From positions 1 through 50,059 of the forward strand of contig BLZA01000059.1 in assembly GCA_013423385.1 (NCBI GenBank): a stretch of 50,059 nucleotides of DNA, given 5' to 3'. Below the pieces are notes generated by a model. The model did not search any database. It was not told where the DNA came from and worked only from the letters and a program-made list of their open reading frames with translations. Position numbers and translations under genes: made by a program. The DNA is from Naganishia liquefaciens (Eukaryota > Basidiomycota > Tremellomycetes > Filobasidiales > Filobasidiaceae). This document shows positions 6 to 48,780 of this stretch, one piece after another; within the stretch, counting starts at the first letter, position 1, and each line of letters starts with the position of its first letter.

Positions 6-18
6 AAAAGGGGATTAA
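6..18 (-). terminator. C-rich 3' motif of cox1
   Basis: TTAATCCCCTTTTT on the minus strand, 29 nt past the cox1 stop, preceded by a small GCGCCC/GGGCGA hairpin. It is a member of the repeated 3'-end motif; a role in 3' processing or termination is inferred. Confidence 0.6.
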
Positions 19-47
19 GTGTATCGCCCAGGGCGCTAAGGTCTAAA

Positions 48-3000
48 TTATGATTGTGTTGGAAGCATTTCGAATGCGTGGTATGGAGTAGGTGATGCAA
101 CTGACCATTCTAGTGAAGTTGCTACTTGTGAACCGTTGTTGTATTCTTGTGTGCTTGTGAAGAATTGTGGCATTCCCCATGGGTTAGCTGCTGCTACTGG
201 TTGGTTAACTAGCATATCGTAAACTACGTATAGGAAGATAGCTGTAGCTACTACAGAAATGATTGAACCTACACTTGAAATGTAGTTCCATCCTTCGAAA
301 GCATCTGCGTAATCAGGGATACGTCGAGGCATTCCTGCTAGTCCTAGGAAGTGTTGCGTTGTATTATCATATTAATTACTTGTCTGCATACGGATAAGTT
401 TCTGAGAATGAATATAGAATACCGTTGTGCTGCTTTAACAATGCGTTGGAAAGTATTGAAGTGTAGACCTAGAGCTTTGTGAGCTGCTGTCATACTAGGG
501 TAGTGTCCAATCCGTTGACCTGAGTCAGGATCGTAACAGTAAATTCCTAATCGACGTGACTTAGCTGTTAGAGTTAATTTTAACCCTTCGTACTCTGTAA
601 GTCCTGGTAGTTTGCTAGTAAAAGTCCGCATAGCAAGACCTTTAGCACGGCAGAAAGCCCGTAGAGAGCTGTATTCTTCCACTACCGTTCCTTCGGCATC
701 GGTTAATGTGACCGAGTTGTGTCGGTTTATCCTTCACAATGTAGGCTGCTACCTCTAACTCAGTTAATGCTTTGTCAGAGATAACTAACCCATCTGGGCG
801 AGTATATACTAATCCACTTGAAATTGAAGTAAGAAGTGAAGTTGGTGAGATGCTTAGAGCAGATAGGGCAAAATTGATAGATCCATACACGGCTAGTGTA
901 AGATAGTCGTACACGAATACAGGTTTACCTAGGTTACCAATATCTTCTAATGAAACCCCTTCTACTTCTTTAACTGATAGCACGTTCCGGAAGCTGTTAA
1001 TAAGGTGTGTGAATCGGCCGTACTAGATGGCGCAAAGAAATCTCGAACTGCTAGATCGATTGCTGCTGTAAGATTAAAATCAGGCAGCCAGTAGTTAAAT
1101 ACTACCTTGTGGCTACGGTTTAGAGGAGGGTTGAAGTTACAGATGGCTAGTTGTTCTTCTACGTGTTTTTCTGTATAGCATAAGATCATTACTGTCCAAT
1201 CTGCACTGTTTGAGAGTACGTTCGAATGAAGTGTTTGGTTGACGTGCGTTATTAGTTAGATCGTAGTATTCTCCAATTCGTCGGAATAGATTAACGCTAC
1301 TTCCGATATAGAAAGAGGAGGGAATTGTGTTGTGAATAATCATATATACCCCACTTAGTCCTGATAAGTGTTTGTTATCATTGATCGAACTAAGTGGGAA
1401 TGTATACGGTGGCGTGGGAAGTGAATTAGTGCTATATGACCGTGACTGAGGACTATTATGCGACTGCGCGATATTCTCGCATCCTTTACCTTTATGCATA
1501 GAGTTAATACTTCAATAATTTACATTATTGTCTAGACCATATGATCATATTTTACTATGGAGAGTTGTGGTCGTTGAAGTACAGTGTTATCTGTACCTGC
1601 TGATTGTAGTAATTATGTACTAGGTTCCAGCAATTAGCTCTCTTTTGTTTCCCCCAATACAAGGGAAGAATGTAGTGTTAACTCCAACGAACAGTGTCCA
1701 GAAGTGAACTTGTCCTAGAGTTTCTGAGTACATTTTACCAGTGATTTTTGGAGCCCAGTAGTAGAATCCTGCATAGATTGAGAATACAGCACCCATTGAT
1801 AGAACATAGTGGAAGTGAGCAACTACATAGTATGTATCGTGCATTGCAATATCCATTGAAGCGTTAGCTAGTACTACCCCTGTTAGTCCACCAATTGTGA
1901 ATAGGGCTACGAACCCAAGGGCAAATAGCATAGCTGTTGAGTATCGAACTGATCCACCGTAACATGTTGCTCGTGATTGGGCCTTTTACCATTTCAGGCT
2001 CAGCTGGCTTATTGCCTCAGTAGAATAAATCTACCTATTGGGTGTTCTAATCCCAAGTTCATTACTGACGGCACCGACTATTCCTTATAACAGCATATGA
2101 AAGTCATACACTTAGCTGTCATGGGGCGTCTAGTCTGTACGCTTTTACACAGTAGTTTCCATTCTGTGACTTAGTTCGACGATATTCCTTCATTAGTTGT
2201 TATTCCCTCTGAAGGAGGTCTCTCGAGTTTGCCCCGCGCATAATTATCGTTTAGTCATTTTATACAGCATTTTTGTACTCATGTGAGGTAGTAGTTTTGG
2301 GTATAGTTGTTGAACGGAAGCACTAGATACGTAAATAACTGGTAGACCTCGTTGCATATGTAGGGTACACACACAACCAAATTTAATCATTACTACGTTC
2401 ATTAGTCGAACGTTGTCAACCATAGTGAAACTTTGCGTTTGAAGGTATAGTTCTCCTCCTTTAACATAACATAAGATCCGTCACCTACGATCCAATGTGC
2501 TAAGGCACTTAGGTCTAGCAGATCATATATATCTGCTGGTACCACTTTTTGTCGTTTACCGTTATCTCCTACAGGGTAGAAAATATCATATAATTCGACA
2601 CTAGACTACGGCTAGTTATAGTTAGGGCTGGAAATAGCTTACCATTTAGTTTTCCCCAAACTACTTGAAGTGGATTAATAAAAAGAATACTTCAAGGGCG
2701 TAAGTAAAGTTTGAGAAACCTTGTTTGTCGTGCTTGTCCTCCTGCGTTTCCTTTTTGAAGCATCTGATAGCAGTAATCCTACTATTACCCGTATCAACCA
2801 TATGCTGCAAGATTACAGTATAGTTTGGGTAACCTACCGTACTCCCAATATTAGTACCAAAGGGCACTAGAGCAGTACAGGAAGTGTTTGCGAGCAGGTA
2901 TTTACGGTTTGCTCGCGGGAACCGTTTATATAGACTTTGTGCTGTATCGATAACTGCGTTGGCCAGATTTACCTTGCTGAAGGATAATTATAGCCATGAG

Positions 3001-48197: not shown

Positions 48198-48210
48198 TCG
48201 GCCAGGCCGC
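48198..48210. repeat. GGCC palindrome (family A)
   Basis: TCGGCCAGGCCGC within a TAAGT repeat field. Confidence 0.68.
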
Positions 48211-48768
48211 ATAAGTTAAGTGCACTAAGTTTGTTTAAAGTAGCTAAAGTTAAAATTAAAGTTAAAGTTAAAGTTACGTTAAATGCTACACACTATCAAA
48301 TGTAACCAAGAACAGGTAAAATAACCACTATAACCACTATAACCACTACTAGCTTAATTAAGTACTGCCTAGTAGTGTAGTGTAAAAGAGAGAAAGAGAT
48401 GAGATATACTACTGCTAATGGCTAAACAACGAGTTGTATGGTTTTTTACTCTCTTAGTGAATATCTACCTTAACCTATAAACACTAGAACTACTGCAAGT
48501 AATCAACTAAACACTGCAATTGCGATCTAATAAGGGATAATGGTGCTATCTAAGTAGAAATCGAGTAGAAACATTACAAATAGAATTAGTTGATAAAGTG
48601 TGATATTACAGTGATTGGCTAGATAATTCGGTACAGTTGGAATATAGTCTAATAGATAACCTATTATATTAAAAGAGACAGATAATAAAGTTAAGTATAT
48701 GATTGAACATAACATAACATAACATAACATATTACAGGGCCCCCACTTTCCATAGCTATAAGTTATCT

Positions 48769-48780
48769 AAAGGGGATTAA
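48769..48780 (-). terminator. C-rich 3' motif of atp8-atp6
   Basis: TTAATCCCCTTT on the minus strand, 29 nt past the atp6 stop, the same distance as for cox1. Confidence 0.6.

Follow-up and report, generated by a model that had tools for sequence, protein, structure and literature searches.

The closest described counterpart of the motif reported here is the C-core of S. pombe, a C-rich signal for 3' cleavage and maturation found on mRNAs as well as on the small-subunit rRNA, as presented in PMC4618339 with citation of Schafer, Hansen and Lang (2005). According to PMC10253155, fission-yeast Rpm1/Rpm2 knockouts fail to process transcripts downstream. In S. cerevisiae, the PPR protein Rmd9 blocks the exonuclease at the dodecamer, at least in vitro, in the account given in PMC9181182, and the title of Zhu et al. 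(1989), as it appears in the reference list of PMC4618339, indicates that an intron-encoded gene, too, has the yeast dodecamer at its end. For the Hypocreales, a short 3' motif, TAAATT, was proposed in silico (PMC8979003). To judge from PMC8979003 and PMC4618339, the species in which it is understood how fungal mitochondrial transcripts end are few, and every one of them is an ascomycete.

The window, by which we mean the whole stretch of DNA analysed, comprises 50,059 nt and corresponds to contig BLZA01000059.1 (contig C28) of assembly GCA_013423385.1 from the basidiomycete Naganishia liquefaciens, an assembly of 19.4 Mb in 28 contigs. It represents a fungal mitogenome with 15 protein genes, rns, rnl and 22 tRNA genes (21 from ARAGORN and one extra from Rfam) and contains group I introns, of which eight match Rfam at the gathering score and further ones below it. 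Most protein genes were named by eye from their translations, while the identity of nad4 and rps3 was confirmed through searches. When the nad4 protein was used as query, the best named organism among the 120 matches listed was Hannaella oryzae with 77% identity; close relatives, at 90-91% identity, were met only as proteins, without accompanying DNA. Comparison of nad4, cob and cox1 pieces with viral contigs found no relative, nor did a pattern search with the conserved rns 3' stretch, and a nad4 scan of genome contigs, in which the best 80 of 124 loci all bore bacterial titles, was left unused. In what follows we consider 17 gene ends, namely those of the protein and rRNA genes, which for shift tests were moved along the contig as a circle.

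The motif has an invariant 9-mer core, AATCCCCTT, of which the window holds 14 exact copies on its two strands; shuffled sequences contained 0.47 copies on average and three at most, and the first-order expectation is 0.52. The one-mismatch count across the genome that the original prediction had proposed, run on this core, yielded 27 copies when 13 were expected. The longer 13-mer from which the earlier work had started, TTAATCCCCTTTT, occurs five times exactly in the window and once in the rest of the 19.4 Mb assembly. Allowing it up to three mismatches gave 53 copies compared to 28 +/- 5 in shuffles, a modest excess, and such loose matching was abandoned as noisy. On the sense strand, the core was found at 12 of the 17 gene ends, at distances between -2 and +64 nt, whereas gene ends displaced along the circle, in steps of 7 bases starting at 200, matched two copies at most. 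A C-rich short motif thus lies downstream of 11 of the 15 protein-gene ends and also follows rns, whose model ends at 19972 and is immediately succeeded by CTAATCCCCTTTT at 19975. The 12 gene-end copies, hereafter called tags, are as follows.

8..16, minus strand: cox1 tag core, exact AATCCCCTT, 31 nt past the stop codon
11837..11845, plus strand: nad4 tag core, overlapping the TAA stop at 11836-11838 (gap -2 nt)
18045..18053, plus strand: nad6 tag core, 64 nt past the stop
19977..19985, plus strand: rns tag core, 4 nt past the point where the match to the SSU rRNA model ends
24547..24555, plus strand: nad4L-nad5 tag core, 32 nt past the nad5 stop, in a 61-nt block that shares 82% identity with its rns counterpart
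26679..26687, plus strand: nad2-nad3 tag core, 15 nt past the nad3 stop
27327..27335, plus strand: atp9 tag core, ACAATCCCCTTGC, 16 nt past the stop; four mismatches to the 13-mer, core exact
36692..36700, plus strand: cox2-nad1 tag core, 15 nt past the nad1 stop
39903..39911, plus strand: cox3 tag core, 39 nt past the stop
42362..42370, plus strand: cob tag core, overlapping the TAA stop at 42361-42363 (gap -2 nt)
44259..44267, plus strand: rps3 tag core, overlapping the TAA stop at 44258-44260 (gap -2 nt)
48770..48778, minus strand: atp8-atp6 tag core, 30 nt past the atp6 stop

These positions, at the ends of most genes or gene pairs, bear out more strongly than first stated that the motif follows its genes on whichever strand they lie, and tag orientation followed gene orientation in all 12 cases. 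Likewise, the motif had been said to begin at the stop codon in nad4, cob and rps3, and in these three genes it is indeed the tag that supplies the TAA. Within an alignment anchored on AATCCCCTT itself, all nine positions are constant in 12 of 12 gene-end copies, the T preceding and the T following the core are each kept at 11 of the 12, and beyond about 13 positions little information is left. Enumeration of 6-, 7- and 8-mers in the 12 gene-end zones, carried out blind to the motif and after setting aside 8-mers that exist solely across the joined contig ends, ranked pieces of the core at the top; with 9- and 10-mers, only artefacts of the joined ends were seen among the matches listed. In a leave-one-out weight matrix search of both strands, 11 of the 12 sites fell within the best 11 places, and atp9 dropped to rank 28 despite its full core. 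The description of the atp9 motif as weak in the original prediction therefore has to be corrected, because the core at 27327-27335 is exact.

The rns and nad5 sites share a duplicated block of 61 nt with 82% identity that has the tag inside, and the two are hence not independent. All other pairs of 40-nt flanks are unrelated, with a median identity of 30% and 50% for the next best pair. Since this holds for every pair but rns/nad5, selection seems to have preserved the same nine bases in 11 independent instances, and with other flank pairs at most 50% identical the tag in general is, on this comparison, not the edge of a spreading repeat.

The five gene ends that carry no tag are those of nad4L, nad2, cox2, atp8 and rnl. 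In each of the four protein-coding cases another protein gene follows directly on the same strand: nad4L overlaps the start of nad5, nad2 overlaps the start of nad3, cox2 ends about 110 nt before nad1, and atp8 is followed by atp6. No core was present at any of these four junctions, in agreement with what had been stated earlier, and this is as expected if each pair forms one transcript. Overlap forces co-transcription only for nad4L/nad5 and nad2/nad3; for cox2-nad1 and atp8-atp6 we infer it, in part from the tag itself, so that for these two pairs the argument is partly circular. At the end of rnl no core was found, and all that lies near the apparent end of the gene is nine consecutive C, at 16598-16606.

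Two further exact cores, and three of the one-mismatch copies that read AATCACCTT, lie away from the 12 gene ends.

5440..5448, minus strand: exact core at the stop (TAA 5447-5449) of a LAGLIDADG ORF (5447-6505, minus strand) within cox1
29658..29666, minus strand: exact core, antisense and complementary to the trnV start (AGGGGATTAGCTC)
23066..23074, plus strand: AATCACCTT in a nad5 intron, close to where a LAGLIDADG-like reading, decayed and judged by eye, ends; weak evidence
21953..21961, plus strand: AATCACCTT in a nad5 intron, following the remnant of a decayed LAGLIDADG and overlapping the edge of a dispersed C/G-rich repeat; equivocal
45652..45660, minus strand: AATCACCTT following a second, decayed copy of the atp6 3' end (45694-45821, minus strand)

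The start of the LAGLIDADG ORF reads as cox1, with a COX1 match under the curated Pfam cut-off, and Rfam gave no intron match over this place; because cox1 pieces lie on either side, it presumably sits within an intron. Its stop codon and core are arranged in the same way as in nad4. This copy lacks the T after the core that is kept at 11 of 12 gene ends, and may for this reason be weak or non-functional. The core antisense to trnV is taken as a coincidence. Four one-mismatch cores read AATCACCTT, including one in a cox1 stretch without a clear gene; of the two decayed LAGLIDADG readings in nad5 introns Pfam confirms only one, and the decayed atp6 duplicate retains 80% identity. We consider these AATCACCTT copies suggestive only.

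Compared with the known systems, the tag most resembles the S. pombe C-core as described: both are C-rich, and both accompany mRNAs as well as the small-subunit rRNA. The host is here a basidiomycete, however, and the tag may also mark an intron ORF. By analogy, the tag would most likely work like the C-core, on the same kinds of RNA. With the S. cerevisiae dodecamer it shares the use of a single short motif at the 3' ends of mRNA genes and, presumably, the occurrence at the end of an intron-encoded gene. The dodecamer end is protected against exonuclease by the PPR protein Rmd9, whereas for the tag a binding protein is only proposed, and the two sequences are unrelated. Taking the dodecamer to read AATAATATTCTT, we found no exact copy of it in the window and no clear enrichment at two mismatches (25 copies vs 18.6 +/- 4.8), and the earlier comparison, similar logic with unrelated letters, was thus apt. 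The Hypocreales motif is alike in following mRNAs and an rRNA at variable distance, but it consists of A and T only, lies after the large rRNA and has no C-run. The original prediction knew of no description of a motif of this form; a C-rich one had in fact been described as the C-core (PMC4618339). Among the matches listed from the openly licensed literature, we found no description of the tag from a basidiomycete, and a search there for its exact letters gave no title on mitochondrial transcript ends among the matches listed. The logic of the tag is already known, and its occurrence in a basidiomycete would be what is new.

Considering all readings together, we favour, with a probability of roughly 70%, that the tag is a cis-acting signal for the 3'-end processing and protection of mature mRNAs and of rns, at which trimming is stopped by a bound protein. 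In this model, precursors would extend beyond the tag, whose core reads AAUCCCCUU in RNA, and would be cleaved downstream of it, at a tRNA or at the tag. The SUV3 helicase and the DSS1-like RNase, which form the mitochondrial 3'-5' exonuclease complex, would then trim the RNA back to the tag, where further trimming would be blocked by an RNA-binding protein, probably a PPR protein, that recognises and holds the tag sequence. The tag would thereby become the 3' terminus, protected by the bound protein, and the mRNAs of nad4, cob and rps3 would end within about ten bases of the stop codon. Observed are the positions, strand, invariance and exceptions of the tag, as well as SUV3 and DSS1-like RNase genes in the nuclear genome; the action on RNA, the binding protein, the trimming and the exact 3' ends we infer.

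With regard to this machinery, the assembly contains a SUV3_C match of 63.9 bits, a Pet127 match and, on contig C21, a DSS1-like RNB protein whose best PDB match is 6f3h, a mitochondrial exoribonuclease II (E 3.3e-18); this protein shows 53-54% identity to Naganishia species, its best matches with an organism name, and has six closer matches at 55-83%. Judged by the named relatives of this protein and of nad4, the DNA belongs to a tremellomycete yeast and falls, with moderate confidence, near Filobasidiales. Genes for SUV3- and DSS1-like machinery are known from other fungi too, and their presence is for this reason weak support. PPR matches were obtained at six loci, and the frames of five of them (the sixth is on contig C7) were compared with PDB sequences, which returned generic PPR proteins or nothing relevant and no chain named Rmd9. 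Predicted RNA folds gave no support in terms of tag accessibility: with a mean unpaired value of 0.61 the core was not unusually single-stranded, and at two of the 12 sites, nad6 and cox3, pairing exceeded that in every one of 60 flank shuffles. The lack of a tag on rnl likewise counts against the model. A derivation of the tag from an anti-Shine-Dalgarno tail of rns was left unsupported by comparison by eye, the rns tail after the conserved GATCA differing from what we take to be the bacterial tail.

A second element accompanies the tag. The word TAAAAGT was found in eight of 13 upstream regions, some with approximate gene starts (p 4.5e-7 before correction for 3674 words), and TAAAAG is present on the sense strand in 11 of 11 spacers between a tag and the next gene, the atp6 tag having been left out of this count because no gene comes after it. 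These 11 spacers hold 20 sense and four antisense copies, when about 2.6 are expected per strand. The nad1-trnA spacer is 1360 nt long and would contain about one TAAAAG per strand by chance, so that it is the short spacers that carry the argument. No other hexamer occurred in more than eight of the 11 spacers, and the hexamers found in seven or eight overlap TAAAAG; in a control for purine bias with 30 letter permutations, the next best reached seven of 11 and again overlapped TAAAAG. The element lies 10-17 nt before seven of the 22 tRNA genes (6-25 nt were searched), compared to a mean of 0.38 and a maximum of four after shifting. In its extended form, TAAAAG(T/A)A, 12 of 17 plus-strand sites are within 110 nt before a gene start, a number reached by a fraction of 0.0006 of 5000 shifts, with a bound of 110 nt that was chosen after the sites had been seen. 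Read directly, the cox2/nad1 and atp8/atp6 spacers contain no TAAAAG. Examples of the extended element include the following sites.

12502..12509, plus strand: TAAAAGTA, 30 nt before the rnl model start
24589..24596, plus strand: TAAAAGTA, 14 nt ahead of trnL, in the stretch that follows the nad5 tag
42502..42509, plus strand: TAAAAGTA, 17 nt ahead of trnH, in the stretch that follows the cob tag
10059..10066, minus strand: TAAAAGTA, upstream of cox1
50035..50042, minus strand: TAAAAGAA, between the cox1 tag and atp8

This distribution points to TAAAAG(T/A)A as a promoter-like element, and it resembles the yeast nonanucleotide promoter, which we take to be ATATAAGTA; ATATAAGTA itself is absent from the window. 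If the element is a promoter, units would start separately and each would end at a tag. This raises the possibility that the tag acts on DNA, as a terminator at which the polymerase is released, perhaps by a bound protein, before the next unit starts from its own TAAAAG(T/A)A promoter. The occurrence of TAAAAG in all tag-to-gene spacers and before seven of the 22 tRNA genes fits such separate transcription. We nevertheless hold this reading to be unlikely: an exact core lies between the cox1 exons and upstream of some of them, on the cox1 strand, and obligatory termination there would destroy cox1 expression, which makes it less likely and favours an RNA-level action in competition with splicing. 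The objection would lose force if the cox1-internal core is inactive, as it may be without the flanking T. Furthermore, the fungal precedents, as presented in PMC4618339 and PMC9181182, act on RNA, and the assembly gave no match to the mTERF family, to which we attach little weight because control genomes were blank too. The original prediction had left the choice between processing and termination undecided; its view of the tag as a 3'-end signal explains the distribution far better than any other reading, and it is the obligatory form of termination that loses ground.

Less probable than release of the polymerase is an element of the 3' UTR for stability and translation, in which a protein acts mainly on translation or mRNA storage and the transcript ends are set by tRNA excision. 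A tRNA gene does lie 46-147 nt after four of the tags (rns/trnD, nad5/trnL, cob/trnH and rps3/trnM), and RNase P could make the ends there, but no tRNA lies between the tagged nad4 or nad3 and the gene that follows, and the overlap with the stop codon fits an end mark better than a binding site in a UTR. A purely translational role is further disfavoured because the tag is present on coding RNAs and on the untranslated rns alike. Finally, the idea that a mobile or recombinogenic element spread through the genome, inserted after genes by chance and left the tag behind deserves hardly any credence and is already disfavoured. Dispersed G/C-rich palindromes do abound in this genome, GC palindromes adjoin the rns, nad5 and rps3 tags, and the rns/nad5 block includes the tag, but the remaining flanks are unrelated (median 0.30, next best 0.50) and the orientation follows the gene without exception.

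Returning to the tag as a 3'-end signal on RNA, a bolder extension, which we put forward tentatively and consider rather doubtful, would make it homologous to the fission-yeast C-core. A C-rich 3'-end code common to mitochondrial mRNAs and the small rRNA would then be ancestral to the Dikarya and the A/U-rich dodecamer a later replacement; the tag would be coupled with TAAAAG(T/A)A into a portable cassette that ends one unit and starts the next, as in the 61-nt rns/nad5 block, and would have been adopted by an intron-encoded endonuclease for the end of its own mRNA. Independently of this extension, the tag predicts the 3' ends of 11 mRNAs and of rns, and offers a means to delimit mitochondrial transcription units from DNA; it could also serve to fish out the binding protein encoded in the nucleus. 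Because the tag does not vary at the 12 gene ends, how transcripts end can be tested by sequence alone in the mitogenomes of Tremellomycetes and by comparison with the S. pombe C-core, and there is a good prospect of an evolutionary result through the mitogenomes of relatives.

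Besides the tag, the short C-rich motif found at gene ends, further sequence elements recur in the window. A sense-strand TAAAAG is present in each of the 11 spacers that lead from a tag to the next gene in the window, and 7 of the 22 tRNAs are preceded by TAAAAG at a distance of 10-17 nt. The extended form, TAAAAG(T/A)A, resembles a promoter element, and the window additionally contains GC-rich palindromes of two kinds, the longer of which (approximately 40-60 nt each) are sited in introns and spacers.

12502, 17001, 24589 and 42502 (+), 10059 and 50035 (-): examples of promoter-like TAAAAG(T/A)A sites
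7153, 10234, 12622, 18090, 21967, 28940, 29506, 37143, 44285, 44878, 46144 and 49939: dispersed C/G-rich palindromic repeats
11997, 12162 and 37492, and 3' of the tags at 19977 (rns), 24547 (nad5) and 44259 (rps3): short GC palindromes

Examples of the short palindromes are TAGCGGCCTCGGGGCCG and AGCGCCCTCAGGGCG, and some of them adjoin tags. LAGLIDADG-like readings, split across several frames, occur in two nad5 introns (21400-23080, +).

Close to the apparent 3' end of rnl, the large rRNA gene, lies a run of nine C (16598-16606, +), which is perhaps a diverged tag. By eye, a tRNA-Arg(TCT)-like sequence was called at ~46608-46682 (+), a stretch in which ARAGORN and Rfam reported no tRNA.

Tag or tag-like sequence also lies in or next to duplicated blocks.

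45694-45821 (-): decayed duplicate of the atp6 3' end, 80% identity to atp6
19967-20027 and 24537-24597: 61-nt block common to the rns and nad5 ends, 82% identity

The atp6 duplicate, which lies ~3.1 kb away from atp6 itself, is followed on its 3' side by a tag with one mismatch in the core. The block common to rns and nad5 comprises the tag, a GC palindrome and TAAAAG.
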